Below are positions 18,505 to 47,248 of a stretch of DNA of 59,717 nt, one piece after another. A program made the position numbers and the translations under genes. Origin of the DNA: Acidobacteriaceae bacterium. Lineage in GTDB: Bacteria > Acidobacteriota > Terriglobia > Terriglobales > Acidobacteriaceae. The stretch spans positions 1 to 59,717 of the forward strand of contig CAJCIM010000133.1 in the NCBI GenBank assembly GCA_903970395.1. The letters run 5' to 3'. Positions within the stretch are counted from its first letter, which is position 1; each line of letters starts with the position of its first letter. The notes under the pieces were generated by a model that had not been told where the DNA came from, did not search any database, and saw nothing but the letters and a program-made list of their open reading frames with translations.

Positions 18505-18519
18505 CCCTTGCAACCCGGA

Positions 18520-24915: not shown

Positions 24916-24942
24916 GGCAGACCCCGCTGTGCGGGGTCTGCC
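24916..24942 (-). terminator. Intrinsic terminator of the PstS-like gene
   Basis: GGCAGACCCCGC (24916-24927) and GCGGGGTCTGCC (24931-24942) form a perfect 12-bp stem with a 3-nt loop. Read on the minus strand it is followed by TAACTTTTTATGG, so it ends transcription of the gene at 24983-26773. Confidence 0.88.
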
Positions 24943-24982
24943 GGGTTGAAACATGCAGCAGAAAATACAGTCATGCCGAAGT

Positions 24983-27642: not shown

Positions 27643-30600
27643 ATGCAGGATGGAATCGGTAAGTTGCATAAGGTTGCCGGGAAGTTTTTGATCGTCGGTG
27701 TGGTTCTGCTGGCGATGGCGGGATGCGGTGGCAGCAGTTCTTCTTCTGGTTCAAGCAATCAAACCGCGACACCCGCCTTCAGCCCCGGCGGCGGCACGTA
27801 CACAGGGTCAAAGCCCATTACCATCTCAGACGCGACCCCAGGAGCAGTGCTCTACTGCACAACGGACGGAACAACGCCGACTACATCCTCGCCTCAATGC
27901 AGCCAGCCGACTACGGTATTCAAGTCGGAGTTCCTGCAGGCCATCGCCGTCGCTCCGAATATGTCGCCTAGCGCGGTGGCTTCGGCCGGCTACACCATTG
28001 GTTTTAACTCCGTGGCAACACCAACATTCATGCCCGCCGGTGGGACGTATACCTCCGTACAGACTGTGGCGATCGGTGATACGACGTCTGGCGCGAACAT
28101 CTACTACACCACCGACGGCAGCGCGCCTGTACCGCCCTCGTCCACAACGACAACGACCGCGAAGCTCTATACCGGCGCAGTGACGGTTGCAGCGAGCGAA
28201 ACGCTCAACGCCATCGCGACGGCGTCGGGTTACGACGACAGCATCGTGGCGAGCGCGAACTATACCATCAGCGTTTCTAGTGTGCCAACCATCACTGGGC
28301 TTTCCCCTGCCTCTGCCACGGCAGGTGGCGCGGCCTTCACCCTGACGGTCAATGGTACGAACTTCGTCCCAGGTTCTATGGTGCAATGGGCAGGCACGGC
28401 GCTGACGACGACATTTGTAAGCGCAACCCAGATAACTGCAGCGGTTCCGGCTAACCTGATCGCTACCGCCAGTTCGGCGAACGTAACAGTGACTGGCCCG
28501 GGAGGTGTGTCGGCGGGGGCTGCATTCACTATCTCTCCCGCCATTCTAGCTCCCACGATCGCCAGCCTCTCACCCTCTTCCGCTACGGCGGGCAGCGCGG
28601 CGTTTACCCTGACCATCAATGGTGCGAACTTTGACTCGGGCACAACCGTGCAGTGGGGAACCACAGCATTGGCAAGGACGTTTGTGAGTGCGACGCAGTT
28701 GACTGCCGTTGTTCCTGCAAGCCTGATTGCGGCCTCCGGTTCAGCAAGCGTGACCGTAACCAGTTCGGGCGGAACATCGTCCGGTGCCACCTTTACTATC
28801 AATGCTGTTCCTCCAACTATCACCAGCCTTTCACCCTCTTCTGCTACGGCGGGTGGCGCGGCGTTTACCCTGACTGTCAATGGTATGAACTTCGTTTCGG
28901 GGACAACGGTGCAATGGAATGGCACTGCTGTGACAACGACGTTTGTGAGCGCAACGCAGTTGACGGCTGCTATCCCTGCCAGCCTGATTGCGACCGCTGG
29001 TTCTGAGAGCGTCACTGTGGCGGATGCTGGTGGTACATCTTCTGCAGCAGCTTTCACCGTCAACTCGGCTCTCCCTACGATCAGCGGTTTCTCGCCAGCG
29101 ACTGTGAACGCAGGTGGCGCGGCGTTCACCCTCACCGTTACTGGTACGAACTTCGTCTCGGGTGCAACCGTACAGTGGAACGCTACCGGGTTGACAACGA
29201 CGTTCGTGAGTGCGACGCAGTTGACGGCAGAAGTCCCCGCCAACCTGATTGCGACCACCGGCTCAGCTAGTGTGACCGTGAAGGATGCAGCTGGTACGTC
29301 GACAGCGGCGACCTACACTATCAGCGCTCCCAATGCACCGACGATTAGCAGCCTTTCACCGAGCTCAGCCATGGCAGGCGGAACTGCGTTTACTTTGACC
29401 GTCAATGGAATGAACTTCAACTCCAGCGCCACCGTGGAGTGGGGCAATACGGCATTGACGACGACGTCTGTGAGCGCAACGCAGTTGACGGCAGCGGTCC
29501 CCCCCAGTCTGATAGCAACCGCAGGTTCCGTGAATGTAACCGTGGCCGACGCTGGCCTTACGTCAGTAGCGGCGATCTTTACCATCAATGCCGTTCCTCC
29601 CACGATCACCACCCTTTCCCCAGCTTCGGCTGCACCGGGCGGCCCTGCATTCACCCTAACCGTGAATGGTGCGAACTTCGACTCCAGCGCAAGCGTGAAA
29701 TGGAATAGCACGGCGTTGTCGACGATGTTTCTAAGTGCAACGCAGTTGACGGCGGTAGTTCCCGCCAATTTGATAGCGACTGCGGGTTCCGCGAGTGTGA
29801 CGGTTACCACGACTGCTGGCGGCCCCTCATCCGCTGCGACCTTTAACATTGTGGCAACCCTCACCGGAACGGTCCTGAGCGGTGCATTGCCGATCGCGGG
29901 TGCGACCGTGCAGTTGTATGCTGCGGGTACCAGCGGTTACGGCGCGGGCTCCAGCGCGCTTACAACTGTACCTGCCACCCTTACCACGGACTCCAGCGGG
30001 AAGTTCTCGCTTCAATACGCGTGCCCTGCGTTGGGGGCACCAGGAGACCAGATGTATCTCGTGGCTACCGGGGGCGACAGCGGAAGCGGGCCGAACTCCA
30101 GCATCGCGCTGATGGCGGCTCTGGGTACCTGCAGCAAACTTCCCTCCTTCGTCACAGTGAATGAAGTGACGACAGTGGCATCGGCCTATGCACTCTCCGC
30201 CTTTGCAACTGTCAACACGAGCGGCGGAGGCATCGCGGTGGGCGCTCCTACCTCAGGATCGGCCTGCAATGCTGCAGGAGGTTGGGTAAGCACACATCCG
30301 AACACCTGCAACTACACGGGGCTGGTCAACGCCTTCAATGCGGTGAACAACCTGGTGTCGATAAGTACGGGCACTGCGCTCACTAATACTCCGGCGTATC
30401 CTACGAATCTGGCGGGCGATCCGAATATCCTGAACAACAGCACGGTGCCGACAACGCGCATCGACGCGCTGGCGGATATGCTGGCCTCCTGCGTAGAGAG
30501 TAGCGGTTCCACCTGCAGCGGCGACCTGTTTACCGCGGCACAGCCCTCCGGCGGTACGCAACCGGACGACACCCTGCAGGCTGCGCTGGACATCGCGCAA

Positions 30601-31953
30601 AATCCCGGCAACAACGTCTCCACGCTGCTTGGTCTGGTCTCGTCCATGACGCCGCCGCCTTACAGCATAGGTGTCGGCGCAAACACCTTGCTCCTAAGCG
30701 GGACCGGTGCGCCCACTGATCTGACCCTGGCTCTCACCTTCACCGGGGCAGGACTGGGGATTGCACCCGGCCTCACGCTTTCGGACGGAGTTGGTGGGGT
30801 TGTTAATGCGGGTCTCGGCATTGATGGTGCGGGGAACGTCTGGGTCGCCGCATATCTCTACAACCCAAGCATGTTTGTAGGCAACGGTGAGATGATTGCG
30901 GAGTTCAACGCCCTGGGCGGGCCCGTAACTCAGGCGACGCAGTTGAGTTCAGATCCGACGCCGGTCCCGACCTATGGGGGCTACAACCCGCAGCCGGGCA
31001 GCACGTCGGGGATCCAGATGAATATGCTCGCCATCGACCAGTCGGAGAACCTGTGGACATATGAGAATGGTTTCTCCGGCAACACTCAGAACGTGCTAGA
31101 AATCAGCACCAGCCCCAACCTTTCCGTGCTGAACACGGTTCCTGCGCCCCAGGTGAACGCTGTCGCCATCGACGCCAGTGGCGACGCGTGGTTTGTGACG
31201 AACTCCAACAACTTGATAGAGCTGCAGGGTAACGGAAAACCTGGTATCACCGGAGGGGCGCTTAGTGGCTATAGCGATCTGTCCTATTCGACTTTCGACT
31301 CCAACGGGGGGCTGTGGACTGTCGGCATCAGCCCTTCTTTCGGTTTGGATGTGCTTCAGCTCAGCACGTCGGACGGAAGCCTAGTTTACGACGCCTTTCC
31401 ATCGTCCACCAGCGATGTTGCGGCACGACCGAGTCTGGTCGCTGACGGCTTAGGGAATGTCTATGGATGCGACCCAACGGGTTCGAACCTGGACGTGTTC
31501 AACGCGGGCGTACTGGTGCAATCCTACCCAATCACGAATCAAAGAGCCTGTGGTACGCAACTGGTGATCGATGGGCAAGGTCATATTTTCTCGGTGCTTG
31601 ACGGGGTCTTCAACCAATTGAGTGGCCGTTTCTTTGGGAATATTGACGAGTTCACAGCTAAGGGCACTCTGATTTCACCTCAAGCGAACGGCTACACCGG
31701 CAGCAGCAGTACTGAGGCGCCGACATTGAACCCCGATTTACTTTTCACAAGTGATACGGTTCCTGGGGTCAGCGCGGCCATTGACGGCTCCGGCAACCTC
31801 TGGGTTCTGAATACCGATACGGACGGCACCAACACGAGCAACTTCAATATTCTTCCGGGCAACGTGTTGGTGGAGTATATCGGCATCGGAGCGCCGGTAC
31901 TTACGCCTGCGGCGACCGCTCTCACGAACGGCATGTTGGGAGCACGCCCATGA
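27643..31953 (+). CDS. Giant surface lipoprotein: chitobiase-C repeats, six IPT/TIG repeats, regulatory-like domain and C-terminal propeller
   Basis: 1436 aa from ATG 27643; the ORF extends upstream, but the lipobox LLAMAGC (Cys28) fixes the N-terminus. Two chitobiase/beta-hexosaminidase C-terminal-like units (about 34-115 and 122-207; FSPGGGTYTGSKPITISDAT, FMPAGGTYTSVQTVAIGDTT) precede six ~87-residue IPT/TIG Ig-like repeats (about 212-736; LSP..ATAGG.AFTLTVNG.NF). Then a carboxypeptidase-regulatory-like domain (~737-830; ALPIAGATVQLYAAGTSGY), a ~200-residue helical region (VNEVTTVASAYALSAFATV, DTLQAALDIAQNPGNN) and a propeller with GLGIDGAGNVWVA-type blades to the end (VEYIGIGAPVLTP). First gene of the sigma-factor cluster and paralogous at its C-terminal ~700 residues to the lipoprotein at 34653. 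Likely an outer-surface adhesin, binder or sensor; no catalytic motif seen. Confidence 0.85.
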   Translation: MQDGIGKLHKVAGKFLIVGVVLLAMAGCGGSSSSSGSSNQTATPAFSPGGGTYTGSKPITISDATPGAVLYCTTDGTTPTTSSPQCSQPTTVFKSEFLQAIAVAPNMSPSAVASAGYTIGFNSVATPTFMPAGGTYTSVQTVAIGDTTSGANIYYTTDGSAPVPPSSTTTTTAKLYTGAVTVAASETLNAIATASGYDDSIVASANYTISVSSVPTITGLSPASATAGGAAFTLTVNGTNFVPGSMVQWAGTALTTTFVSATQITAAVPANLIATASSANVTVTGPGGVSAGAAFTISPAILAPTIASLSPSSATAGSAAFTLTINGANFDSGTTVQWGTTALARTFVSATQLTAVVPASLIAASGSASVTVTSSGGTSSGATFTINAVPPTITSLSPSSATAGGAAFTLTVNGMNFVSGTTVQWNGTAVTTTFVSATQLTAAIPASLIATAGSESVTVADAGGTSSAAAFTVNSALPTISGFSPATVNAGGAAFTLTVTGTNFVSGATVQWNATGLTTTFVSATQLTAEVPANLIATTGSASVTVKDAAGTSTAATYTISAPNAPTISSLSPSSAMAGGTAFTLTVNGMNFNSSATVEWGNTALTTTSVSATQLTAAVPPSLIATAGSVNVTVADAGLTSVAAIFTINAVPPTITTLSPASAAPGGPAFTLTVNGANFDSSASVKWNSTALSTMFLSATQLTAVVPANLIATAGSASVTVTTTAGGPSSAATFNIVATLTGTVLSGALPIAGATVQLYAAGTSGYGAGSSALTTVPATLTTDSSGKFSLQYACPALGAPGDQMYLVATGGDSGSGPNSSIALMAALGTCSKLPSFVTVNEVTTVASAYALSAFATVNTSGGGIAVGAPTSGSACNAAGGWVSTHPNTCNYTGLVNAFNAVNNLVSISTGTALTNTPAYPTNLAGDPNILNNSTVPTTRIDALADMLASCVESSGSTCSGDLFTAAQPSGGTQPDDTLQAALDIAQNPGNNVSTLLGLVSSMTPPPYSIGVGANTLLLSGTGAPTDLTLALTFTGAGLGIAPGLTLSDGVGGVVNAGLGIDGAGNVWVAAYLYNPSMFVGNGEMIAEFNALGGPVTQATQLSSDPTPVPTYGGYNPQPGSTSGIQMNMLAIDQSENLWTYENGFSGNTQNVLEISTSPNLSVLNTVPAPQVNAVAIDASGDAWFVTNSNNLIELQGNGKPGITGGALSGYSDLSYSTFDSNGGLWTVGISPSFGLDVLQLSTSDGSLVYDAFPSSTSDVAARPSLVADGLGNVYGCDPTGSNLDVFNAGVLVQSYPITNQRACGTQLVIDGQGHIFSVLDGVFNQLSGRFFGNIDEFTAKGTLISPQANGYTGSSSTEAPTLNPDLLFTSDTVPGVSAAIDGSGNLWVLNTDTDGTNTSNFNILPGNVLVEYIGIGAPVLTPAATALTNGMLGARP
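28278..29853 (+). repeat. Six tandem ~260-bp coding repeats (IPT/TIG domains)
   Basis: Six consecutive units of about 258-270 bp inside the lipoprotein gene share long near-identical DNA stretches, for example GCGACGCAGTTGAC and GGCGCGGCGTTTACCCTGAC-like segments. Unit starts are near 28278, 28548, 28806, 29067, 29331 and 29595. The protein units share the LSPxSATAGGxAFTLTVNG and SATQLTAxVPAxLIATxGS cores. Confidence 0.85.
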
Positions 31954-32047
31954 TGAGCGCAAGCAAGAACCGAAAATACTCGGAGAAATAATGTGGGCAT
32001 CGCATCCGATTCGCACACGCATGCCAATCTCGATTCTGCTTTCACCG

Positions 32048-32085
32048 CCCTCTATATCCATAGGTACCTCTCTGGATATAGAGGG
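32048..32085 (+). promoter_or_regulatory. Long perfect hairpin in the leader of the ECF sigma gene
   Basis: CCCTCTATATCCA (32048-32060) pairs perfectly with TGGATATAGAGGG (32073-32085); the 12-nt loop contains the palindrome AGGTACCT. It lies 95 nt after the first lipoprotein stop and 82 nt before the preferred sigma start. No T-run follows, so it may be an attenuator, mRNA-processing site or operator instead of a plain terminator. Confidence 0.6.
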
Positions 32086-32167
32086 GAGACGACATCCGTC
32101 TTCGCTGAGAGATGCGAAGCGTCAAGGACGAGTTGCGCCCTTCAGGCAGGGTGCAGGAGCAGCGAGA

Positions 32168-32866
32168 ATGCACATCTGTCAGAGAACGGAGATTCATATT
32201 CGGCGAAACAGCGGCGCAGGCTTTACGGAGCCGGAGTTAACCACGGAGGATGCAACCTATCTTGCGCCGACACTGCTTGAAGAGTCCGCTTCAACTGAAG
32301 ACAAGGAACGCCAGGATCCCGTGCAGAGTCTTAAACGCGATTCAAGGGAAGAGTTCATCCTCGCTCTGTACGACGAGTACCGGCCAAGGCTCTACCGTTA
32401 CATGCACAGCATGCAGTTGGGACGCGATCATGCGGACGAGATCATCCAGGAAACCTTTATGCGCCTGACCACGGAACTTCTCAAGGATACCAAGATCGAG
32501 AACGTCCAGGGATGGATTGTCCGGGTGGCCCACAATCTTGCCATCAACGTGTTGAAGAAGGAGCACGGAACCGTAGTGAATGAAGAGGCTCGAAGTTTTG
32601 CCATGGAGAACCTAGCCGATCCGGCATTGAGTCCGGAAGAGAGCTACTCGAACAAGGAGCAAGTCAAACTCATGAGGACGGTGCTTTCAAGCTTGAAGCC
32701 TCAGCATCGACAGTGTTTTCAAATGCGGGCGCAAGGTTTTCCTTACAAGGATATCGGTCTTGCGCTTGGATTCAGCGAACAGCGCGCTGCCTTCGTGGTG
32801 AAGCAGGTGGCTGTTCGTCTGGCGGCAGTATATGGGTTGCGGAATGGTGGGCAGGGTGAAGGATAA
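32168..32866 (+). CDS. RNA polymerase ECF sigma factor
   Basis: Sigma-70 family, extracytoplasmic-function type, 232 aa. Region 2 is at about residues 60-110 (EEFILALYDEYRPRLYRYMH, HADEIIQETFMRLTTELL, VQGWIVRVAHNLAINVLKKE) and region 4 at about 170-220 (LSSLKPQHRQCFQMRAQG, YKDIGLALGFSEQRAAFVVK). ATG 32168 has AGGAG 8 nt upstream. The frame also opens at ATG 31991 with GGAG 5 nt upstream, but that would translate the hairpin and add an Arg/Pro/Ser-rich stretch that does not look like protein. The stop overlaps the next gene by 35 nt, and that gene encodes its probable anti-sigma factor. It should control this cluster and perhaps itself. Confidence 0.92.
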   Translation: MHICQRTEIHIRRNSGAGFTEPELTTEDATYLAPTLLEESASTEDKERQDPVQSLKRDSREEFILALYDEYRPRLYRYMHSMQLGRDHADEIIQETFMRLTTELLKDTKIENVQGWIVRVAHNLAINVLKKEHGTVVNEEARSFAMENLADPALSPEESYSNKEQVKLMRTVLSSLKPQHRQCFQMRAQGFPYKDIGLALGFSEQRAAFVVKQVAVRLAAVYGLRNGGQGEG

Positions 32867-34640
32867 GCTGCTGCACTATCTTCTCCCCGATTCCGACACC
32901 CATCTCTCCGATGAGCGATTGGCTGATTTGTTTTGCGGTGAGCTCTCACTTTTTACGAGGCGGGCAGCGCGGCGGCATCTGGCTAAGTGTGCAGAATGCC
33001 GGATGCAGCAACGGAGTCTTGAAGGCCCACGCGCCGAATACATGATCGAGCTTTATCGTGAGAGCCTGGAGGGTCCGGACACTGTTCTTGATGATGGCCA
33101 ACGTATGGCCTTTGCCTTGTGGCTGGAGTTTCAGTTGCGGCGGGAGTCTTCGCGGCAAAAACAGACCGTTTCAGCTTATATAACCTGGTGGCGCAGCCTC
33201 TCATCGGTTCTCCCGTCGGCATCCATCGGGGTGGTTATTGGACTGGTTGCGGCAGTTTTGGTCTTGCTGTTTTTGTGGCGGGAACGCGCTCCTGCTATCA
33301 GTCCCAGTTCTCTGCTAGTTCGCGCTGAGAATTTGGACACGCCCAACACTGCGGCGGACCCCGGAGTGGCACACCAGACGATTCAGATCAAGACGGCGAA
33401 ACAGACGTTGAATCGATCGGTCTATTGGGATGTGCAGGGAAGACATAGGCCGAAGCCTGCCACTTTGTCCGCTGCTGAAGAGAAGCTCCGTTCGACATTG
33501 GGTGAAGCAGGAGTTGACTGGAATCAGCCTATATCCGCATCCACATATCAGGCATGGCACGATCGCCAGCACGTGCATGCCGATCGTATCGACCGTAGCG
33601 GTCTGCATCTGTTAACACTGACCACAACTGTGCCGGAAGGCAAAGTATCGGAAGAATCGCTGACGGTGCGGGATACAGATTTTCATCCAGTGGCGCGGCG
33701 AGTCGGTTTCCGGGACAACGAGACCGTAGAGATTGCCGAAGTTGATTTCACGATCCTGCCGTGGAGCGCTGTCGACCCAAGCGTCTTTGAGCCGATGGGA
33801 GAGGTGGTACGAGAAGACCACAAACTGGTTGGGTTGCAGCCTCTTCTCCCCTTGTTGCGTCCCCAACTGGCACCGACTCCCGAACAACTGGATGAGACTG
33901 AGCTTACCGTCAGGCTCATTCTGAATCAGCTTGCCGCAGATACTGGTGAGCAAATCGAGATCCATCGGCTTCCGCAGGCAGTCGAGGTGGATGGTCTGGT
34001 TGAGACAGAAGAGCGCAAGCGGGAATTGGTATCTCGCCTTGTATCGGTGCCACGATTGAAGCTCGAGCTCCAGAGTGTGGCGCATATGCGGGAAGCCCCC
34101 CATACTGGGAGTGAATCGGTCAGTGTGCAGGCGGCGTCTATGCCTGATCTTCCGTCGGCGCTGGAGAAATATCTTCAGGCGCGCGGGCAGAAGGTTGGCG
34201 ACATCAATGCCATGGCGCAACAGGTCTTCACCGACGCTCTCACGATCAGCCAGGAGAGCAGTGCGATGGTCGATTTGAAGACGCGCTTTGCGTCGACAGA
34301 TCAGACGCCTGTCATAACTTCGGCGACGGTTGTGGAGTTGCTCTACAGTCACCACTCACGCCTGGAAACCGCTCTGCACCAAGAGCGCGCGCTATTGGCG
34401 GAGATGGAGGGGGTCGCCGCTTCCAAGGGACACGCACCTGCACGTGGCGAAGTCTCGCTTAGCGATGAGGCGTCCAGGAATCTGGTCTTTGTAAAAGAGC
34501 TGACGCAGACGGACGCTCCGGCTGAGCGAAGTGCGGAAGCGATCTTCACGGACATGTCCTCAACGCTGGATCGCATCGCTGCCGCTGCGGACCAAGCATA
34601 TGGGGAGTCTGAAGACTCTCTCCGGAATACAGAGAGGTAG
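32832..34640 (+). CDS. Zinc-finger anti-sigma factor with very large extracytoplasmic domain
   Basis: 602 aa from ATG 32832 (ATG 32844 also possible), overlapping the sigma gene by 35 nt. The cytoplasmic N-terminus has an HxxxCxxC zinc-binding anti-sigma motif (His49, Cys53, Cys56 in RRHLAKCAECRM) after the usual LADLFCGEL helix. One TM helix lies at about 127-148 (SASIGVVIGLVAAVLVLLFL). The remaining ~450 residues face outward and are not a FecR domain. They begin with a region resembling an outer-surface beta domain (SVYWDVQGRHRPKP; HLLTLTTTVPEGKVSEESLT) and continue into mostly helical sequence. Most zinc anti-sigma factors are 80-250 aa, so this one likely senses something directly in the periplasm. 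Ligand unknown. Confidence 0.85.
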   Translation: MGCGMVGRVKDKLLHYLLPDSDTHLSDERLADLFCGELSLFTRRAARRHLAKCAECRMQQRSLEGPRAEYMIELYRESLEGPDTVLDDGQRMAFALWLEFQLRRESSRQKQTVSAYITWWRSLSSVLPSASIGVVIGLVAAVLVLLFLWRERAPAISPSSLLVRAENLDTPNTAADPGVAHQTIQIKTAKQTLNRSVYWDVQGRHRPKPATLSAAEEKLRSTLGEAGVDWNQPISASTYQAWHDRQHVHADRIDRSGLHLLTLTTTVPEGKVSEESLTVRDTDFHPVARRVGFRDNETVEIAEVDFTILPWSAVDPSVFEPMGEVVREDHKLVGLQPLLPLLRPQLAPTPEQLDETELTVRLILNQLAADTGEQIEIHRLPQAVEVDGLVETEERKRELVSRLVSVPRLKLELQSVAHMREAPHTGSESVSVQAASMPDLPSALEKYLQARGQKVGDINAMAQQVFTDALTISQESSAMVDLKTRFASTDQTPVITSATVVELLYSHHSRLETALHQERALLAEMEGVAASKGHAPARGEVSLSDEASRNLVFVKELTQTDAPAERSAEAIFTDMSSTLDRIAAAADQAYGESEDSLRNTER

Positions 34641-34652
34641 GAGAGCCCGGTT

Positions 34653-37600
34653 ATGCAGCCCATCATCATTTCCCGCCCGCTTTTACGTTATGAACCTGCC
34701 CGGCTACGCCGACGGCGGCAGGATGGACGTGCAGCGACCGGTATCCTTCGCGCTCTATGTATGACGGTCTTGGCAGCAGCGACAGTCGGATGTAGCAGCG
34801 TTTCTACCTTGAAGGCGACCGCTGGACCAATTGCAATGAGTACATCCAGCGGAACGGCGGTGAAGATCAGCACCCTTGCCGTGGGTTCCGCTCTGAAGTT
34901 CAGCATGATGCCAGTTGGAGACAGCAGTGCTGCAGGCGTCGATTGGATCGTGACCTGCGAGGGTAATCCGGTCACCGGCAGCATCGTTAATGGCGCGTGC
35001 GGCAGTCTGGCTCCGTCTCATACCGCGGACGGTGCGGCTACGGTTTACACTGCGCCCTCCGTGGCACCGATCGGCGGCACCATTACCGTCACTGCGACAG
35101 TGACCGGCAATCCCTCGCAAACCAATAGCGTGAGCCTCACAATCTTGGCATCGCCGATTGGAGTTGCGTTCGAGGAAAACGGCGGTCCAATTCCGGGGTC
35201 TTTGCAGATCAGTACAGCGCTAGGTCTTACTGCCGTGGTAACCAACGACCCGTTGGCGGCAGGAGTGTTTTGGACGGCGACCTGTGGATCGAGTGTCTGT
35301 GGATCGTTCAGCCCCACCTCAACTCTATCGCTGGGTGACACAACGTATACGGCTCCCTCTCTCGTGCCGGCGGGCAGCAAGGTAACCCTTACGGCGACCT
35401 CGCTGACGGACACTACCAAGTTCGCGAGAGTAACGCTGACGATCACTGCGCCGCCGCCGCCCGTTCCGGTAACGGTGAGCGTGCTGCCATCGAGCGTGTA
35501 TGTGGAAACTAATGGCTCAGCTCACTCGGCCTCATTGGCTGCGATCGTTGGCAACGATCTGGCTGTCGCTGGTGTCGACTGGTCTCTCAGTTGCGGCGCA
35601 TCGAGTTGCGGAACGGTCAATGGATCGACGAAAACGCATACAGCGAGTGGGGCTTTGGTAACCTATGTGAGCCCTTCCGCGATTCCTCCCGGTGGCACCG
35701 TCACCATTACGGCGAATTCCACGACGAATCCAGCGGTATCGGCATCGGCCATCGCGACAATCGTTACAACGATGCCGATTGTTGTGAAGATCTCCTCCGC
35801 CCCTCCTGCGACGCTGACTGTGGGAACGCAGGCGACGTTTGCGGCTACGGTAACTTCCGATCCGAACAACCTGGGCGTGAACTGGACGGCAAGCTGCGGA
35901 GGTACAGGCGGATGTGGCAGCTTCAATCTGTCTCCCGCACACACGGCAAGTGCAGGGCAGATTGTTTACACGGCCCCTGGCACGGTTCCCACGGGCGGTC
36001 TCGTGACGATCACTGCATCTTCGCCCGCGTCTACGTCGTCGAATTCCGCCATCGCCTTCACTACGGTGATCGCTGCGCCGCCCTCTCTTGCTTTTACGCA
36101 GGTGCCGACTGCTCCGCTGACAGCTTTAGCGCAGGCTCCTGTAAGTGCCACGGTTGCGAACGATGTTTCTCCGGGCGGCGTCAACTGGTCGGTGCAGTGC
36201 AGCAGCGCAGTTCCCGGCGGTTGCGGCTGGATCGCTCCTATCCAGACGGCGAGCGGCGCGACAGCCGTGTACACCGCGCCGCCAGTTACGTCGACCGGAA
36301 CCTCAGTGACGATCATTGCAACATCGGTTGCAGACCCGAGCGTGACTAGTAGTTCAAGTCCTGTTGAGATCAAGCCGTCGATGGTTCTTTCGGTTGGTTT
36401 CGTCCCGTCACTGCCGGCGCAGATCCAGACCAATGCAACCGTGAATCTAACTGCTGCGGTGGCCAACGATCCGATGAATGCGGGCGTTGACTGGCAGGTA
36501 TGCGCGAGCGGTTGTGGATTTTTTACGGTGAAGCCTGCGATTCCGGCGATTCCAGCCACTGCGACGACGCCTTATGTTCCAGCAGTTCCAGCCGTGACGG
36601 CGACCACCGTCTCGGCCTGGTCCAACGGCCTGCCGATTCTGTATACAGCTCCATCTGAGCCGCCCACATCGGGTGTAGTCGCGGTGGAGGCCCTCTCTGA
36701 GGCAGATAGGACAACGGCGAACTCGGGAACGATCGCCATCACCACCAGCCCGGCCGGGCCGGTGGTGGGCGGCTCGGTTCAGGCAGGGACGCTGCCGGTT
36801 GTGGGTGCCTCCGTCTTCTTGTATGCCGCCGGGACAAGCGGATATGCTTCGGCATCTTCGCAGATTGCGGCAACGACGACGGACAAGAACGGAAACTTCA
36901 CGGTACCTGCCGGCTATGCATGCCCCTCCCCCGTCAGCCAGATGTATTTGGTGGCGACCGGCGGCAAAGTTGGAACCAACGCCGCGAATCCGAATCTCTC
37001 CCTGATGACGGCGCTGGGAAGCTGCAACGGGCTTGGCTCCAGTGCGGTTGTTATCAATGAGGTTACGACCATTGCTTCGGCATGGGCAACAGCTCCCTTT
37101 GCGGCTAATGATGAGCTTACCGGCGATAGCAGTGCTCTTTACCTGGGCACGAGCAGCGGGAATCTCTCCGGGCTGGCGAATGCGTTTGCTACGGTGAACA
37201 ACCTCGTCGACATCACGACCGGGAAGGCAAGATTCGTGGTTCCCGCCGCGAACGCCGCGGTCCCTTATGTGGAGATCGGCACGCTGGCCGATTTTCTGAA
37301 TGCCTGCACAGCAACCGCTGGAGGAGTGGAAGGAGACGGAAGCCCTTGCGGAGTGTTGTTCACCGCGACCGATACGCTCCCGGCAGGAACGTACAGCGGG
37401 TCTATTGCTCCGTCCGACACCTTGCAGGCTGCATTCAACATCGCACAGCAACCCGGAGGCAGAACCGATGGCTATACCCTAGGTTCCCTCAACCTCTTCA
37501 CTCTAGCGACCTCCGGGTCTCCTTTTCAGCCGATTCTTGCGACGAACCCGGGGGAATGGTCGATCTCGCTGAACTATACCGGCGGGGGTGGTCTTAATAC

Positions 37601-39481: not shown

Positions 39482-39529
39482 CAATGCTATTTCCTCATAG
39501 GGCAAGACAGGAACCAAGGGAGAAGAACA

Positions 39530-41422
39530 ATGAAGAGGTTTAGACAGATTGTGGCGGGACTGGTTCTAACATCGTGTGTCGTGGCGCAGGCGCAGAGCGG
39601 TTCGGAACAGACCACAGCCAAATCAACCAAGACAAAGTCTATGAAAGCCAAGGCGAAGGCTCCGACACAGGAAGAGATTCTTCTGCGGCAGTTGAACGAA
39701 AGGTTTCAAAAACTCGACCAGGTCAACAGCAAGCTGAACGACCTGGAGCAGAAGTACGACGCCCTCCAGCAGCGATTGACAGCGCGAGATGCCGAGTTGG
39801 AGCAGGCCCACAAGGATGCAGCCGAGGCCAAGCAGAAGCTCGAAGCCACACAGGCTGTGATCGGCACAGATGGCTCCGCGGTGACGACGTTGCAGAGCGA
39901 TGTAGCAGGCCTGAAGACGGCATCGAGTTCGCTTTCATCGCAGGTTCAGGAGAGCCAGGAGGAGACGAAGAAGCTCGAAAATCCTGACAGGATTCGCTTC
40001 ATGGGAGTCGCCCTCAAGCCGGGTGGCTTCCTGGCGGCCGAAACCGTCGACCGGCAACGCGCGATCGGCGGGGATGTGAACACCCAGTTCACCGGAATCC
40101 CGTTCGCCGGTTCAACGGCTGGCGTACTGTCGGAGTTCAACGCCAGTGGTCGACAGTCGCGTATCTCGCTGTTGGCGGAAGGCAAGATTCCAGCCGCGAT
40201 AGTGCGCGGATATTTCGAGGCGGATTTTCTATCTGCGGGAACTACCTCGAACGACAACCAGAGCAACAGCTACCCGTTGCGCCTGCGCCAGGCTTGGGCT
40301 CAGGCCGCACTGAACGATGGGTGGACTCTGACAGGTGGGCAGATGTGGTCGCTCGCTACCGAATACCGGCACGGCTTAGACAACAACTCCGAAGCCGTTC
40401 CGCTGACGATCGATGCACTATACAACGTCGGGTTCACCTGGGAGCGGCAGTATGGCTTGCGTGTCGTGAAGCGGCTGACAAACAAGTTCTGGATCGGCGC
40501 GTCCCTCGAAGAGCCGCAGACGCTCAACATAGGGGGGCACAATCTTCCGACAATCGCTTATCAGCAGACAGGGAATGGAGGCGGGCTTTATAACTCCACG
40601 GCGAACTATAGCTTCAACGAAGCTCCGGACCTGATTGCGAAGGCCTCCTACGAAACTAACTGGGGGCACTTCGAACTCTTCGGCATTAGCCGCTTCTTCC
40701 GCGACCGTGTCTACCCGAATGGTCCCACTCCGACCAGCGCTTCTCAGCCAGTGACGACCTCCGCTCTTGGTGCTTACACCTCGAAGGCCGATGGTGGCGG
40801 CATAGGCGCGAATGCGCGAGTGTTGTTGTTTGCCAAGCGGTTGGAGATTGACGCGCATATTCTCGGCGGAAACGGTATCGGTCGTTACAGCTCCGCGCAG
40901 TTGCCAGACGCCACTGCCCATCCTGACGGCTCGCTCGAACTGCTTACGGGCGGTTCGGCGCTGGGTTCAACCGAATGGCATGCAACGCCGCGTCTAGATC
41001 TGTACGGGTATTACGGCGGCGAATACACAAAGCGTGCCTGGTACAACACCGGATATACCGTCACGACTGCCGGACCCACGCTGGGTCAGCCAATCCTGGG
41101 CGGTTATGGCGCTCCCACCAACAATGTTGCCGGCTGCTATGTGGAGGTGTTGCCCGTCACCTCGCCGAACGGCGGCGGCAACGTGGCTTCCAACCCCTCC
41201 AACTGCAATGCGGATAACCGCAATATCCAGGAAGGAACCTTCGGCTACTGGTTCCGCTTCTACAGGGGAACACGCGGAACGCTGCAGCAAGGGATTCAGT
41301 ACTCCTATGCTGAGCGCCGAACCTGGCAGGGCATCGGTGATCCTGCAGCCGGCTTGACCAACTCGCCCAAGGCCATTGACAACATGTGGTTCACCTCTCT
41401 TCGCTACTACCTGCCTCAATGA
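39530..41422 (+). CDS. Outer-membrane porin with N-terminal coiled coil
   Basis: 630 aa; ATG 39530 follows AAGGGAGAAGAACA. Signal peptide MKRFRQIVAGLVLTSCVVAQA. Residues ~20-60 are Lys/Thr/Ala-rich. Residues ~50-160 form a coiled coil with heptads (QLNERFQKLDQVNSKLNDLEQ, ARDAELEQAHKDAAEAKQK). From ~170 a beta-barrel of the DcaP/trimeric-porin type follows (IRFMGVALKPGGFLAAETV, WAQAALNDGWTLTGGQMWS), ending in FTSLRYYLPQ. The coiled coil probably mediates trimerisation or peptidoglycan contact, as in related porins. The stop codon overlaps the start of the TonB-dependent receptor (ATGA at 41419-41422). The solute is unknown. DcaP-type identity is by pattern; a porin is the safe statement. Confidence 0.83.
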   Translation: MKRFRQIVAGLVLTSCVVAQAQSGSEQTTAKSTKTKSMKAKAKAPTQEEILLRQLNERFQKLDQVNSKLNDLEQKYDALQQRLTARDAELEQAHKDAAEAKQKLEATQAVIGTDGSAVTTLQSDVAGLKTASSSLSSQVQESQEETKKLENPDRIRFMGVALKPGGFLAAETVDRQRAIGGDVNTQFTGIPFAGSTAGVLSEFNASGRQSRISLLAEGKIPAAIVRGYFEADFLSAGTTSNDNQSNSYPLRLRQAWAQAALNDGWTLTGGQMWSLATEYRHGLDNNSEAVPLTIDALYNVGFTWERQYGLRVVKRLTNKFWIGASLEEPQTLNIGGHNLPTIAYQQTGNGGGLYNSTANYSFNEAPDLIAKASYETNWGHFELFGISRFFRDRVYPNGPTPTSASQPVTTSALGAYTSKADGGGIGANARVLLFAKRLEIDAHILGGNGIGRYSSAQLPDATAHPDGSLELLTGGSALGSTEWHATPRLDLYGYYGGEYTKRAWYNTGYTVTTAGPTLGQPILGGYGAPTNNVAGCYVEVLPVTSPNGGGNVASNPSNCNADNRNIQEGTFGYWFRFYRGTRGTLQQGIQYSYAERRTWQGIGDPAAGLTNSPKAIDNMWFTSLRYYLPQ

Positions 41423-44400
41423 AGGCAGGGATGGGAACGGCGAAGCGAAAAGAAGGACAAGGACTAGGAGCCTTTCAAAAGATGTTTCGATCATTTCGAT
41501 GGCTGCTGCTCGCGATGGCGCTGATCCCGATGTTCAGCGCCCTGCGCCTTGCCGGGCAGACTGCAGCCGGGCACTTTTCGGGCCAGATCACCGATCCGGA
41601 TGGAGCCGCAATTCCTGCGGCAACCATCCAGATTGTCAATCAGGACACGCTCGTGAAGCGTGAAGTCAAAACAGACAACTCCGGGTCGTACATCGTTCCG
41701 GGGCTTCCCCCGGGCAGTTATCAGCTCATCGTGGAGGCGCATGGATTCAGCCGGAGATCGAGCCAGATTCTTTCTCTTGCCGCAGGGCAGACGCTGGTCT
41801 TCAATGCTCAAATCGCAGTCAATACCGTCAGCCAGGATGTAGATGTCAGCGCTGGGGCACTCACCACGGTCGATACAGGCTCGGCGTCCATATCTACGAC
41901 CTTGAACAGCAAGGAGGTCACCGGCTACGGACTGAATGGACGCAATTTCCTGTCCCTCAGCGCTCTCTCTCCCGGTGTCAGTAACCAGACAGGCCAGGAC
42001 GAGGCCAAAGTCGGCGTATCGGGAAGCGCGAAGTTCAGCGTCAACGGCGGCCGCGTGGAATATAACACCTTCGAAGTGGACGGCAGCGATGTGCTCAACA
42101 CCAGCATCAATGCCAGCCGCGGGCAAGGCGAGCCGCTCGTCGTCTATCCCAGCATTGACTCCATTCAGGACATGAAGATCCTGACCGCTGATTACAGCGC
42201 GCTCTACGGTAAAAGCGCCTCGGGAAGCGTTCTGGTGACAACGAAATCGGGCACCGATCAGTTTCACGGTGTCGCCTATGGTTTCATCCGTAATGAAATT
42301 TTCAACGCAAGAAATTATTTTGATCAACCGAACGCAGAGCCTGAAGGTTTCCAGGGCAAGGCCGTCTACCGCACGCCACTCTACAGACGACTCGATTTCG
42401 GTGGCACCCTTGGCGGCCCTATCTACATCCCTGGTGTTTACAACACCGGCAAGACGAAGACTTTCTTTTTCTTTTCCGAAGAGATTCGCCGCGAAAAGAC
42501 CCCGGTCGATTACAACCAGGCTGTGCCTACCATGGCCGAGCGGGCCGGGAACTTTTTCGACGTCTGCCCGACGCCGACTCCAGGCGTGAGCGGAACGTTC
42601 AGCCCGTCACAGTATCCCGATTGCCCGCAAGCAGGCATAAGCAGCAGCACATCTTTCAACAGCCTTGCGGGTGCAACCTACAATGCCGGCTTGCAGGTAC
42701 CGGTGGATTACATCAGTTCGGCGATTCTCAACTCCGGACTGATTCCAGCACCCAACTCGGCCAGCGGTTGCAATTCGACCAATCCTTCGCCACTGTTTCA
42801 TTGTTTCGTTACCGCCGTTTCGCCGCCGACCCACTGGCGCGAGGAGTTGTTTCGTATCGACCACAATCTGACGGAACGAGAACGCCTGTCGTTTCGCTAT
42901 GTGCACGATGACTGGGACACAGTGACGCTTGCTCCGCAATGGGGCGTCGTCCAGAACAGCTTTCCTACGGTCGAAAACCAGTTCGACGGCCCTGGACTAG
43001 ACATGGTTGTGATGCTGGCGCAGGTGCTGCCACATGGAATCAGCAACCTGATGTCGGCAGGCTACGAGGTCGAACACATCTCTCTCGCTCCGCAGCCAGG
43101 ACCCGGTGTCGCGTCGCTCAACAGGCCTCCGACACTGAACGATCCAGCCTCGCAAGGAGGAACGCCGGTCACTGGCAGCCCGGGCTGTGCTGTATTCTCG
43201 GCTCCGAGCGCTGCCTTTACTCCTCAGTCCGTGACCGAGTGCCCGATGGGTTCCATCTTCAGCAACAGCAGTAACGCCCTAACGGGAGGTGACAACGAAC
43301 TGCCGGGATTGGTCTTTCAAGGGACGAATGGCGCGTATGGGGGACATGGCTTTGCCGCAGATACGGGGTACGCGCCCTGGGCCCAAGACAACCCTACCTT
43401 TACCGTCCGCGATGACGCCAGCATGATCGTCGGAAAACATATCCTGCAGTGGGGATTCTTGGGATCGTACGTGCAGCAGAACGAACTAAGCGCTGTTACC
43501 GGAGCTAACTCCGGTGACCTTCAGGGATTGCTCACCTTCAGCAACCAGCAATCGATCCACACCTCGGGCAATGCGTTCGCAGACTTTCTATCCGGCTCAG
43601 GCTTCCTGCCAAGTTCTAACGGAAATACAAATGGAGTCATCCTCCCTGTGACTGCCATCAAAAGCTACACGCAGGACAGCGGAAAGTCGGAGTATCACAG
43701 CCGTTACAAGACAGCCGACCTTTATCTGCAGGACGATTGGCGGATACTTCCTCACCTGACGATCAACGCCGGCTTCCGAGCCAGCCTCTTCGGAGCTTGG
43801 TACAACCCCAACGGCACGGCCTATAACTGGCGGCCTGAGGCCTTCAACCAATCCCTTGGCTCGTCCATCTATATCGACCAGAACCAGGGAAATCTGGTCT
43901 ACAAGAACAGCGGCGTTCAGATTCCCTTGAGTCTCACCTCTCTTGCTCCTGCGATCGTGAACGGACTGGTGCGGTGCGGCGTCAACGGTGTGTCCGATAG
44001 CTGCATGTCCAATAGCGTGTTCCATCCCTCGCCGCGGGTAGGCTTTTCCTGGGACCCATGGGGCGATGGCAAGACCGCCGTCCACGGCGGTTATGGTCTC
44101 TTTTGGGAGCACGGAACCGGTTATGAAGCCAATGTCGGTTCGCTGATCGGCAGCGCCCCCCTTGTCCTGAGCGAGACCCAGTCGAATATTCAGGGTAATG
44201 CTTCCGGCAACGCCTATAGCCACATTGGGCAAGGCGCTGGGCAGGCGGGGAGCAATCCCTCCTCTAATGGAGGAGCCACCTTCCCCTTGAATGTAACCTC
44301 TATTCCCACAAAGGCTGTGTACTCCTACACTCAGCAATGGAGCCTAAGTATTCAACGCGAAGTCAGCAAGGGTATGGTCGCCCAGATCGCCTACGTCGGT

Positions 44401-45675
44401 ACCAAGGGCACGCATCTGACGGCAGTGAGCGATCTCAATCAGTTGCAGCCGCTCAGCACAAGCTTGAATCCCTTTGGGGCAGGGCAACCGATCACCTCTG
44501 GCGTCTGTACCACGGGAGCCAACAATGGTGCTTTTTCGGTAGCAGGCCAAAATACCAGCGGCGGGTCTGGTGGCGGCATCACCATCCCCAGTTCTCCAGC
44601 CATCAGCCCCAACGATCCGGGCTATGCCAATATGTTTATCGCCTGCACTGGTAATCCGGGGTTCGGAGCCGGAACCTCAGCAGAAACGTTCAAAAAGCTG
44701 GGTGTAAGCGCCGATGTCTTGCGGCCCTATCGCGGGTTCAGCAACATCATCTCGGTTCAGAACATAGCCGACTCGGAGTACAACGCCCTTCAGGCCACGC
44801 TCCGACAGACGACTGGACCTCTGACCATCGGCATCGCCTATACCTACAGCCACTCCCTCGACGACTCCTCCGACCGTGCCTCGGCTAACTTTGCCAACTC
44901 GCTCGATGTCCACTCCAACCACGCCACCTCGGACTTCGATCAGCGGCAACTGCTGAACATTAGCTACATCTACGATCTTCCGCTGCTTCGCCTGCTTCAT
45001 GGCTTCACCCACCTGGTGGGCACCGGCGGCGACTCAGATGACACGGCCGCCGTCTCCGATCACGCCACGCCGGATTACTCACCTGTTGTGAAGACAGTGC
45101 TGGGAGGATGGCAGATCAGCGGTATCACCAGCTATGCGACCGGTACGCCCTTCAGTGTCATAAACGGGGGCGGTTCGGACGGCACCGGCGCGGCAGACAA
45201 TGCGGGTGTAGGCGATGGGCTGGGCGTTGGGTCCTACCCGGATATGATCGGCAAAGCGCGTGTTGGCAAGCCCTTTGTCGCTCAGAACGCCAATAACGTC
45301 GGGCCGCTGCTGCTGAACCCGGGTGCCTTTGCAGCCCCGCGCGGCCTTACCTTCGGCGACGCCGGGCGCAACTCTCTGAACAATCCTTCGCGCATTAACT
45401 TCAACGCCTCTCTGTTCAAACACTTTAAGCCAGTGAAGCGTCTGGATATCGAGTTTCGCGCCGAAGCCTTCAATGTCTTCAATCACACTCAGTTCCGCAT
45501 CACCGACCCCAGTCATCCGGGCAATACCGGCAACAACGTCATCAACTGCTACGGGAGCCAGACCGAACGCTACTCTGCGGGCGCTACTGGCTGCCTCGCC
45601 GGAAACTCCTTCCTGCATCCGGTGGACGCTCACGACCCCCGCATCCTGCAGTTCGGCCTGAAGGGCACCTTCTAG
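41419..45675 (+). CDS. TonB-dependent receptor, large, in sigma-factor cluster
   Basis: 1418 aa from ATG 41419, which overlaps the porin stop; starts at 41431 or 41482 would still give a signal peptide (MFRSFRWLLLAMALIPMFSA). Domain order: carboxypeptidase-regulatory-like domain (~60-145; GQITDPDGAAIPAATIQI, GLPPGSYQLIVEAHGF), plug (LNGRNFLSLSALSPGVSN; DMKILTADYSALYGKSASGS; VTTKSGTDQFHGVAYGFI) and a long barrel with TonB-receptor strand spacing, ending ILQFGLKGTF with C-terminal Phe. It is larger than the receptor at 15058 because of loops rich in Gly, Asn and Ser. Co-transcription with a sigma/anti-sigma pair recalls transducer-regulated receptors, although no FecA-type signalling domain is visible at its N-terminus. 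Confidence 0.92.
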   Translation: MKAGMGTAKRKEGQGLGAFQKMFRSFRWLLLAMALIPMFSALRLAGQTAAGHFSGQITDPDGAAIPAATIQIVNQDTLVKREVKTDNSGSYIVPGLPPGSYQLIVEAHGFSRRSSQILSLAAGQTLVFNAQIAVNTVSQDVDVSAGALTTVDTGSASISTTLNSKEVTGYGLNGRNFLSLSALSPGVSNQTGQDEAKVGVSGSAKFSVNGGRVEYNTFEVDGSDVLNTSINASRGQGEPLVVYPSIDSIQDMKILTADYSALYGKSASGSVLVTTKSGTDQFHGVAYGFIRNEIFNARNYFDQPNAEPEGFQGKAVYRTPLYRRLDFGGTLGGPIYIPGVYNTGKTKTFFFFSEEIRREKTPVDYNQAVPTMAERAGNFFDVCPTPTPGVSGTFSPSQYPDCPQAGISSSTSFNSLAGATYNAGLQVPVDYISSAILNSGLIPAPNSASGCNSTNPSPLFHCFVTAVSPPTHWREELFRIDHNLTERERLSFRYVHDDWDTVTLAPQWGVVQNSFPTVENQFDGPGLDMVVMLAQVLPHGISNLMSAGYEVEHISLAPQPGPGVASLNRPPTLNDPASQGGTPVTGSPGCAVFSAPSAAFTPQSVTECPMGSIFSNSSNALTGGDNELPGLVFQGTNGAYGGHGFAADTGYAPWAQDNPTFTVRDDASMIVGKHILQWGFLGSYVQQNELSAVTGANSGDLQGLLTFSNQQSIHTSGNAFADFLSGSGFLPSSNGNTNGVILPVTAIKSYTQDSGKSEYHSRYKTADLYLQDDWRILPHLTINAGFRASLFGAWYNPNGTAYNWRPEAFNQSLGSSIYIDQNQGNLVYKNSGVQIPLSLTSLAPAIVNGLVRCGVNGVSDSCMSNSVFHPSPRVGFSWDPWGDGKTAVHGGYGLFWEHGTGYEANVGSLIGSAPLVLSETQSNIQGNASGNAYSHIGQGAGQAGSNPSSNGGATFPLNVTSIPTKAVYSYTQQWSLSIQREVSKGMVAQIAYVGTKGTHLTAVSDLNQLQPLSTSLNPFGAGQPITSGVCTTGANNGAFSVAGQNTSGGSGGGITIPSSPAISPNDPGYANMFIACTGNPGFGAGTSAETFKKLGVSADVLRPYRGFSNIISVQNIADSEYNALQATLRQTTGPLTIGIAYTYSHSLDDSSDRASANFANSLDVHSNHATSDFDQRQLLNISYIYDLPLLRLLHGFTHLVGTGGDSDDTAAVSDHATPDYSPVVKTVLGGWQISGITSYATGTPFSVINGGGSDGTGAADNAGVGDGLGVGSYPDMIGKARVGKPFVAQNANNVGPLLLNPGAFAAPRGLTFGDAGRNSLNNPSRINFNASLFKHFKPVKRLDIEFRAEAFNVFNHTQFRITDPSHPGNTGNNVINCYGSQTERYSAGATGCLAGNSFLHPVDAHDPRILQFGLKGTF

Positions 45676-45691
45676 CAAAGAGGAAATCGTC

Positions 45692-47248
45692 ATGCAGCAT
45701 TTCGAATCTCAATCCGAACCATTCATGAGGGTGGCAACTCGTCCGGTGGCAGTCCTGTTTCTCGGCTGGCTTGCCGGATGCAGTTCAAGTCCGATTCCCG
45801 TCACGCAGGCGCCCGCACCTCCACCGAACGTGCAAATCTACTTCGCGCCGTATGTTGAAGGGAGCAGCGTTCCAATAGCCCCTCTGACTTATACCCTCGA
45901 CGATGTTGTGGGTGCTGATGGGACGGGGAATTTTTCACAGACAACCTACCGGCCTCAGACCCAACCCGGCCCTCAGGTTCTTAATGCCGGTAGTCTCGCG
46001 ATCGGACAGCGCGGCTTGCGAAGCCTCGGCGTTACAGCCACTTATAACTACATCAACAGTGGCACGCCTTCGTATGAGGCTACGACTTACAACCCGGCTC
46101 AACCCGGCAGCTTCGCAGTGGAACTTGCCGCTCAGGCCGGAGGGCTGGTGCAGATGGTTGGGCAGCCGGTCCAGCCTCTCGTCGCCGCGACGCAATGCCC
46201 TAATTTCTCTTCCGCGCAGACCTACCAGTTCATCACTATCCCGGCACCGGCGAGCGATCAACTCTCAGTCGGTCCACCCGGCGGCCCATCAACTTATGAG
46301 CCAGAGGGCAACTGGAACCCAACAACCGATACCGCATACGGCAGCGTGGACGTCATCTCCAGCGGCAGCACCGTCACATTCCAGAACATTCATCAGTACA
46401 TCCTGCCTCCTGCGGGGGGAGCGACAGCACCTCCAAAGCCTCCCCAGGAGCCGGCCCAGTTAAATGGTTCATCGATAACCGGAGCTTGCGGGCCCACGTT
46501 CTTTGGCAATACCATCAACGTTCCTGGGCAGTTAATCGTCACCGATCCTGGAAGCGGTCAATCGAGTCCGCCGCAGGCTGTGGTGGGCATCGGTCCGACC
46601 GGCCTTCTGGTCGAAGATAACGGGCACAATGGGCAGGACTTTCTACCCAATACGCCCAAGGCATTACCTGGCCTTCAATACAACAACGTTCTCGGCGCGG
46701 GTACTGGCGCCGTCGGCCTGCCTCAGCCGCCCAGCCCACTAGACACCAGCACAGTCGTCAGCAAACAATATCTTGGCTTCATCTATGAAGCCGGGAACAA
46801 CGACCAAGGTGTGACTGGGTCGTCGAACCTCGTCTCGTTCGGCTTCCCCAGTCTGCCCACCGGGACCACCGGTTGTCCGTCCGTAGACGCTGACGCCTCC
46901 AACTCTATCCTGATCTACGGCGGAGACTTCCCGGTGAACCCGAAGACGGGCCTGCCTGACCCTGGCCCCAACAATAGCAGTAACCCAAACTATCCGTATG
47001 GCAAATACGACTTCACCATCGACCTCGGCCCGCAGGACACTTCGAATAACGGCCTATATCGCCAGGCTAAAGTTTGCGTTGGCAAATCGTATCCGGGCAA
47101 TTCAACCGGCATCGCATATCCCTTCCAGGCCGTGGCCGTCGCCGGACAAGTGGGTAGCCAATATGCCATCTTCCTCATAGGGCAGTACTCCCCAACTGGG
47201 CTGGACTCCGCTCAGCCCTGGGCCATCTACCTCCTATCGTCGAATTGA
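45692..47248 (+). CDS. Uncharacterised lipoprotein closing the sigma-factor cluster
   Basis: 518 aa; AAAGAGGAAA precedes ATG 45692, 16 nt after the receptor stop. Lipobox LGWLAGC gives Cys30 (Cys19 if translation starts at 45725). The mature part begins SSSPIPVTQAPAPPPN (linker), then beta-rich sequence: YFAPYVEGSSVPIAPLTYTL, repeated NxG-S-T and QPGPQV-like motifs, and late IDLGPQDTSNNGLYRQAKV. It ends with AIFLIGQYSPTGLDSAQPW. I recognise no family. High Pro, Gly, Asn and Ser content fits an extracytoplasmic beta protein. Its position as last gene before a hairpin suggests a ligand-binding lipoprotein for the receptor, but there is no direct evidence for that. Confidence 0.8.
   Translation: MQHFESQSEPFMRVATRPVAVLFLGWLAGCSSSPIPVTQAPAPPPNVQIYFAPYVEGSSVPIAPLTYTLDDVVGADGTGNFSQTTYRPQTQPGPQVLNAGSLAIGQRGLRSLGVTATYNYINSGTPSYEATTYNPAQPGSFAVELAAQAGGLVQMVGQPVQPLVAATQCPNFSSAQTYQFITIPAPASDQLSVGPPGGPSTYEPEGNWNPTTDTAYGSVDVISSGSTVTFQNIHQYILPPAGGATAPPKPPQEPAQLNGSSITGACGPTFFGNTINVPGQLIVTDPGSGQSSPPQAVVGIGPTGLLVEDNGHNGQDFLPNTPKALPGLQYNNVLGAGTGAVGLPQPPSPLDTSTVVSKQYLGFIYEAGNNDQGVTGSSNLVSFGFPSLPTGTTGCPSVDADASNSILIYGGDFPVNPKTGLPDPGPNNSSNPNYPYGKYDFTIDLGPQDTSNNGLYRQAKVCVGKSYPGNSTGIAYPFQAVAVAGQVGSQYAIFLIGQYSPTGLDSAQPWAIYLLSSN

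Follow-up and report, generated by a model that had tools for sequence, protein, structure and literature searches.

Does a sigma/anti-sigma pair that lies within a row of surface-protein genes control that row? The question is raised by contig CAJCIM010000133.1 (C133 of genome G000 in our set) of an Acidobacteriaceae bacterium (assembly GCA_903970395.1, genome size 3.8 Mb), whose 59,717 nt were analysed as a whole and are called the window here. The window carries eight neighbouring genes, P1 to P8 in map order, including those for an extracytoplasmic function (ECF) sigma factor, its putative anti-sigma factor and a TonB-dependent receptor. On balance, and with moderate confidence, we consider a self-switched outer-membrane receptor assembly to be the best explanation of this arrangement. 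The computed results behind it are a conserved unit, a promoter motif, a predicted sensor fold in P3 and a fixed link to a receptor gene across the family. The features concerned are as follows.

27519–27544, + strand: candidate ECF promoter TTGAGAA-N14-GTCAT, a motif of eight of the ten loci that begin with P1 (P1-first loci)
27643–31953, + strand: P1, lipoprotein with TIG/Ig repeats (Pfam TIG, E 2.2e-59) and a C-terminal region common to P4
32168–32866 (likely start; open frame from 31991), + strand: P2, ECF sigma factor (Sigma70_r2, 2.8e-10; sigma70-ECF, 1.5e-18)
32832–34640, + strand: P3, anti-sigma factor (ChrR profile match; AlphaFold model; Foldseek and VIA-align matches)
33297–33809, + strand: RseB/MucB/LolA-like domain of P3, residues 156–326 (predicted structure)
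34653–38594, + strand: P4, Ig-repeat lipoprotein with a propeller-like C-terminus (Reg_prop barely over cut-off)
38591–39481, + strand: P5, small Ig-repeat lipoprotein without a family match
39530–41422, + strand: P6, coiled-coil protein with a predicted outer-membrane barrel (coiled-coil matches; barrel by inspection)
41419–45675, + strand: P7, TonB-dependent receptor (Oar-like) with CarboxypepD_reg (PF25183, E 4.1e-144; CarboxypepD_reg, 3.6e-19)
45692–47248, + strand: P8, lipoprotein of no recognised family with a canonical lipobox

Conservation of the eight-gene unit

All eight open reading frames (ORFs) lie on the + strand, and a recheck of their coordinates bore out the original prediction on the 4-nt ATGA overlaps at 38591 and 41419, the 35-nt overlap of the sigma and anti-sigma genes (32832–32866) and the gaps of 12, 48 and 16 nt. 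Seven ORFs keep their predicted boundaries; the sigma gene does not, its start being likely at 32168 and not at 31991. The predicted cluster span of 27643–47248 does contain the eight genes, but the unit reaches further, to genes at 23731–26773 and perhaps to 22448.

A protein search with P3 over 61 genomes matched ten, the window's genome included, and a scan of named genomes gave 21 loci from 37 candidate stretches. The comparison of gene order that had been proposed for other acidobacterial genomes showed P1–P8 complete and in the same order in six further loci: G002, G022 (L043, Granulicella mallensis X5P3), G010 (L044, Granulicella sp. S156), G189 (L046, Silvibacterium bohemicum), G239 and Paracidobacterium acidisoli, where the cluster was pieced together from the overlapping stretches L048 and L055 of one contig. 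L045, L047 and L049 have P1–P7 in order as far as the fetched DNA reaches. A sigma-first form was found in L050, L051, L052, G166 and G180 (L053 ends after the anti-sigma gene); G166 and G180 have a P1-like gene 3' of P8, and behind it a homologue of the window's 24983–26773 gene (the 24983 gene, divergent to P1).

Identity to the window is 76–90% in the three nearest loci and falls to 29% (P2) and 64% (P6) in the farthest. The pairwise identities of P2–P7 covary (Spearman 0.68–0.89 over 13–14 loci). P1–P8 is one real, conserved unit. As the loci are related by descent, the synteny shows co-inheritance and not independent events. We also surveyed P6 and P3 in a sample of 200 genomes of the family, scoring the six best candidates of each. 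Eight genomes yielded nine P6 matches above 950 bits, and seven of these nine matches have a split P3 relative alongside on the same strand. Distant P6-like proteins reached up to 678 bits and some match was present in 168 of the 200 genomes, which makes P6 a single branch within a widespread family.

That the genes are chance neighbours, independently expressed and functionally unrelated, is very improbable. A P6 orthologue does lie outside the cluster in G190, and large-scale synteny alone can hold neighbours together in close relatives; yet the order is kept while identities to the window drop to 29–64% and the flanks differ, and P1 and the 24983 gene have been relocated in G166 and G180 but remain within the unit.

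The sigma factor, its candidate promoter and the putative P3 sensor

The predicted ECF sigma identity of P2 is upheld by Sigma70_r2 and by sigma70-ECF, the latter match exceeding its cut-off. The early part of the sigma frame lacks the third-position bias at variable sites among four close orthologues; this bias sets in at ∼32221 and is strong from 32341. In all ten P1-first loci a start codon stands behind a Shine-Dalgarno-like stretch (by a loose test) 162–177 nt upstream of the sigma core. The conserved codon in the window is the ATG at 32168, and alternative in-frame starts such as the GTG at 32321 are present. Because the codon-position bias appears late and the start codon is conserved at this distance, P2 most likely spans 32168–32866 (232 aa), and the gap between P1 and the sigma gene is therefore 214 nt, not 37.

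TTGAGAA-N14/15-GTCAY occurs before P1 in eight of the ten P1-first loci, roughly 80–150 nt upstream (124 nt in the window); the distances are approximate, as P1 starts are known only approximately. All six sigma-first loci have TTGGGAA before the sigma gene, followed at the matching distance by CGTTA or CGTCA in five and by CGTTT in G166. Gapped words were common to 5–6 of 13 upstream regions, compared with three in each of ten shuffled sets. The first half of the motif was found in none of 14 slices (104–877 nt) upstream of fused or distant loci. Since the motif changes together with the sigma clade, the sequences suggest that a P2-type sigma reads it. GGAAC was considered as a −35 element and rejected, the GTTCC/GGAAC palindrome before P1 being kept, among the loci compared, only in the window, L043 and L044.

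Elsewhere in the fetched stretches the full motif, in either form, was seen once in L047 (minus strand) and once in G116. The strict form GTTGAGAA gave eight matches in six genomes, versus three for a reversed control, with none in G000 and one or two in each of the other five. Four of the eight lie at P1, which leaves four, a number close to that of the control. G002 and G022 each have exactly one match, at P1, and the two in G239 lie away from P1. The window reads ATTGAGAA and hence does not match the strict form; a looser form gave one match in the window, where 0.11 were expected.

The anti-sigma factor P3 has a ZAS-like N-terminus, a membrane helix (residues 129–152 in the AlphaFold model), an RseB/LolA-like domain, an alpha-beta-beta-alpha-beta stretch (residues 350–421 in the model) and a helical C-terminus. 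Its zinc-finger anti-sigma domain is weakly matched (E 0.014 alone; ChrR profile, E 4.4e-4), and zf-HC2 was matched at E up to 1 in ten of 22 P3-family members (seven of the 22 entered the scan without the N-terminus). From sequence and model, P3 is predicted to be a membrane anti-sigma factor with a cytoplasmic anti-sigma domain. The anti-sigma label given earlier keeps this weak support, and the domain that follows the helix had been overlooked. Residues 156–326 adopt the LolA/RseB/MucB fold in the predicted structure, according to AlphaFold, Foldseek and VIA-align, which places RseA-like and RseB-like parts in one chain. P3 appears to fuse two proteins that other bacteria keep apart, and the RseB/LolA-type domain is its likely sensor. 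The N-terminal domain of MucB is described in an excerpt of PMC7400510 as the lipid-signal-binding region and as similar to LolA/LolB.

The sigma-E/RseA/RseB system of Escherichia coli and AlgU/MucA/MucB of Pseudomonas likewise combine an ECF sigma factor, a single-pass anti-sigma factor and an RseB/MucB/LolA-like periplasmic domain. The window differs in having this domain inside the anti-sigma chain, with no separate RseB and with extra alpha/beta and helical domains behind it, in a candidate regulon that is its own operon, and in the attached receptor gene. A general response to envelope stress, of the type known from sigma-E/RseA/RseB and with the pair merely adjoining surface genes, would agree with the fold of the sensor domain. 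We nevertheless regard it as improbable: beyond P1 the strict promoter pattern has few matches in the six genomes, near the control level, so that a broad regulon was not seen with this pattern, and the pair is linked to a receptor gene.

Receptor linkage and fused relatives across the family

Anti-sigma, sigma and receptor profiles were run over the fetched loci, with loci fetched twice counted once. Anti-sigma matches of at least 100 bits were counted, those of 61–97 bits (L154, G022b, G002c, G027 and a fragment in L054) were left out and those below 60 bits were not listed; among the latter, G008/L041 is a fused chain with a receptor-like gene 3'. Outside the eight-gene type, all 25 distinct loci counted have a gene for a TonB-dependent receptor directly after the anti-sigma gene, at spacings from a 199-nt overlap to 330 nt (in L055 and L059 the DNA ends within the receptor gene). 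Six of these 25 receptors also helped to build the receptor profile, and they were first found by likeness to the window's receptors. Three of the loci (L150, L151 and L152) belong to other families of the phylum. Among the loci left out, L154 has an adjacent receptor, and in G027 a weak receptor lies at a distance of 1.1 kb; in G022b and G002c no receptor stands downstream, and receptor-like genes lie upstream.

P4–P6 stand between the anti-sigma and receptor genes in 12 distinct eight-gene loci (6.8–8.4 kb) and in the window; L050 and L053 end before the receptor. As the receptor comes next in all 25 relatives, the eight-gene cluster is an elaborated version in which three genes separate the switch from the receptor. 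The most parsimonious history starts from a core of sigma, anti-sigma and receptor genes that later gained the lipoproteins and P6. The original prediction had tied the pair to surface genes in general: outside the eight-gene loci this holds for the receptor, kept in 25 of 25, and for the most part not for the other surface genes. The P3 family was matched at E 1e-20 in eight of 297 sampled genomes of the phylum and is therefore patchy.

Twelve of the 25 loci were labelled fused by a profile built on six of the fused chains. They encode a single chain of ∼845–1017 aa, a sigma part followed by a P3-type membrane sensor; of three chains scanned, one has Sigma70_r2 above the Pfam cut-off and two have it below. 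Fused chains before TonB-dependent receptors were observed at L034:12126–14981 (− strand), L041:10790–13798 (− strand), L054, L055, L057–L061 and L138–L141; that of L055 (P. acidisoli) lies 3' of P8 of the eight-gene cluster. P8 homologues follow the receptor 3' in eight-gene loci and, as P8-like lipoproteins, in some fused loci, and two large proteins behind receptors of fused loci were scanned and carry Ig and NHL-propeller domains. P4–P6 were not seen in the remaining loci outside the eight-gene type. Neither the fused relatives nor the genes at 23731–26773 nor the likely sigma start had entered the earlier gene inventory.

The nearest precedent for these chains is the IutY/ECF52 type of fusion. 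The sections of PMC8999054 consulted describe fusions of an ECF sigma factor with a membrane-bound anti-sigma part (IutY; groups ECF48, ECF52 and ECF53), likewise with sigma and membrane parts in one chain. In contrast to the fusions described there, the relatives found here have a P3-family region behind the helix and precede TonB-dependent receptors, and the window's own pair is split.

The order sigma, anti-sigma, TonB-dependent receptor in the 25 relatives is also that of FecI-FecR-FecA, and signalling of that kind is a possibility, if a doubtful one. Ligand-loaded P7 would touch periplasmic P3, perhaps at residues 350–421, and thereby free the sigma factor. Both the receptor's position in 25 of 25 loci outside the eight-gene type and the modelled alpha-beta-beta-alpha-beta order of these residues, the topology of STN and BON domains, favour it. 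However, no STN domain was found in P7 with Pfam at E up to 0.1, 22 P3 relatives gave no FecR family match at E up to 1, and the well-predicted sensor domain of P3 resembles RseB/LolA instead. Unlike the Fec genes, the window also has three surface genes between switch and receptor. No match to a BON or STN domain was obtained for P3 residues 345–425: in the window the stretch has no Pfam match, and VIA-align barely covered it.

Accompanying genes and the proposed switch

P7 has both features of Oar-like receptors, the PF25183 barrel and CarboxypepD_reg, plus a weak Plug in Pfam, which supports its predicted receptor identity. A second Oar-like TonB-dependent receptor lies at 15055–19994 of the window, followed by a type I phosphodiesterase/sulfatase-like gene. 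The TIG repeats of P1 are supported, and it has a lipobox-like site looser than the consensus. The propellers predicted for the lipoproteins find weak support in P4, whose Reg_prop match is marginal; P4 is present in all 14 loci compared, window included. In the 13 other loci, orthologues of P5 have 48–78% identity and those of P6 64–89%. Calling P6 a porin is unproven, since profile searches matched its coiled coil and no barrel family.

Bacteroidota SusC/SusD loci similarly join a sigma/anti-sigma pair to a TonB-dependent receptor and surface lipoproteins. The present loci differ in phylum, and neither SusD (P1, P4, P5 and P8, E up to 0.1) nor a glycoside hydrolase was found in the window's conserved unit; the Pfam search for the latter covered P1–P8 and the 23731 and 24983 genes, the relatives' other nearby ORFs being unscanned. 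Downstream of the cluster, at 50694–58386, the window has mannosidase-type genes of GH38 and GH92 on either side of one for a GFO/IDH/MocA oxidoreductase, and no homologues of these GH38/GH92 genes were seen near the unit in the relatives' loci compared. The remaining features surround or interrupt the eight genes.

22448–23491, + strand: secreted YncE-like beta-propeller (NCBIfam PQQ_ABC_repeats, E 3.5e-11, below cut-off)
23731–24906, − strand: secreted alpha/beta-hydrolase, divergent to P1 (Pfam DLH barely over cut-off)
24983–26773, − strand: secreted protein of no recognised family, divergent to P1 (no Pfam at E 0.01)
32048–32085, + strand: 12-bp hairpin in the P1–sigma gap (gap fold z −3.39)
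47401–47451, + strand: terminator-like hairpin (−33.2 kcal/mol, z −6.04)

The 24983 homologue adjoins P1 in nine of the ten P1-first loci, window included, and is absent in L048; in G166 and G180 it follows P1 in the same orientation. Of the nine P1-first loci that have it, eight also have the hydrolase alongside (the window, L043, L044, L045, L046, L047, L049 and G239), and the DNA of G002 ends before the hydrolase position. G180 has the hydrolase homologue downstream of P1 and the 24983 homologue, all on one strand. Because both genes accompany P1 across the P1-first loci, they belong to the unit, which in soil Acidobacteria comprises eight to ten adjacent genes. The hydrolase has a GQGSGG nucleophile motif, read by eye. 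The 24983 product matched no NCBIfam family over cut-off, and its structure model (pLDDT 32.5) gave no usable fold. It may be a PstS-like phosphate-binding protein, a conjecture from motifs read by eye and from neighbours in G239 (L125), where genes resembling a PiT phosphate transporter and a DUF47 regulator adjoin the unit beside the 23731 homologue. The 22448 propeller gene is a possible further member, with homologues in three of 16 stretches examined (14 distinct loci), two of them before the unit (L043, L044) and one immediately 3' of P8 (G189).

The hairpin predicted as a terminator at 47401 folds strongly (none of 200 shuffles folded equally well), with a weak T-run 3' of it. The hairpin at 32048–32085 is stable, is retained in the closest relatives and may be an attenuator or processing site. 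As a conserved RNA it was rejected, with one compensatory pair in four sequences, a level reached by 110 of 500 shuffles. Rfam gave no match at gathering score across 26700–47800.

In the self-switched assembly that we favour, P3 would hold P2 at the inner membrane of resting cells through its RseA-type part, a zinc-finger-like domain and helix joined to the RseB/LolA-type periplasmic sensor. The sensor would bind a signal, and P3 would then be inactivated, presumably by proteolysis; the likeliest signals are a lipid, an acylated molecule or some state of the complex of receptor and lipoproteins. Freed P2 would transcribe its own operon from 27519–27544, raising its own level and those of P1, P3, the two Ig lipoproteins (P4, P5), the putative barrel (P6), the receptor (P7) and the P8 lipoprotein. 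A TonB-dependent uptake complex with surface lipoproteins would result. The earlier proposal that one stimulus switches on the whole assembly remains the best reading because a conserved unit has a single candidate promoter in front, although the porin it was said to own is unproven.

Several observations speak against this explanation. The loci compared are related, so that counts over them do not represent independent cases. L048 and G239 have no promoter motif before P1. G180 (L129/L130) has the sigma gene, P4–P8 and P1, but no anti-sigma gene in the 56 nt between sigma and P4, and no anti-sigma match was found elsewhere in that genome at E 1e-3 among the six best candidates scored. The P6 orthologue of G190 sits on a 5.5-kb contig among unrelated neighbours. 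The P3 model has a pTM of 0.43, its structural matches are at 5–15% identity, and a shared LolA/RseB fold shows no ligand.

A more specific version, which we put forward tentatively and hold to be unlikely, is that the RseB/LolA-like domain of P3 reads acylated trafficking intermediates of the operon's lipoproteins or of the imported molecule. If so, the P3 switch would be a build-state sensor matching lipoprotein supply to receptor assembly, with RseA and RseB merged into one chain that serves a single outer-membrane machine.

Receptor operons controlled by their own sigma factor are known from FecI and from Bacteroidota loci. RseB-type sensing is likewise known, and the combination in its present form appears to be new, as we found no description of it. 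In the portions of the open-licence literature consulted, no paper was recognised as describing the eight-gene unit or an anti-sigma factor that incorporates an RseB-like domain, in line with the original remark that no named system has this composition; its parts are known separately. The excerpts of PMC3174227 and PMC7074687 consulted do not mention the combination.

These loci make up a family of sigma switches tied by position to TonB-dependent receptors. Acidobacteria are abundant in soils and have many such receptors, whose control is largely unknown. P3 looks like an anti-sigma factor that has taken in the RseB sensor, and the promoter motif is directly testable. The split and fused forms of the sigma/anti-sigma proteins offer a natural experiment in their evolution, and the switches a route to the substrates that acidobacterial TonB-dependent receptors serve.

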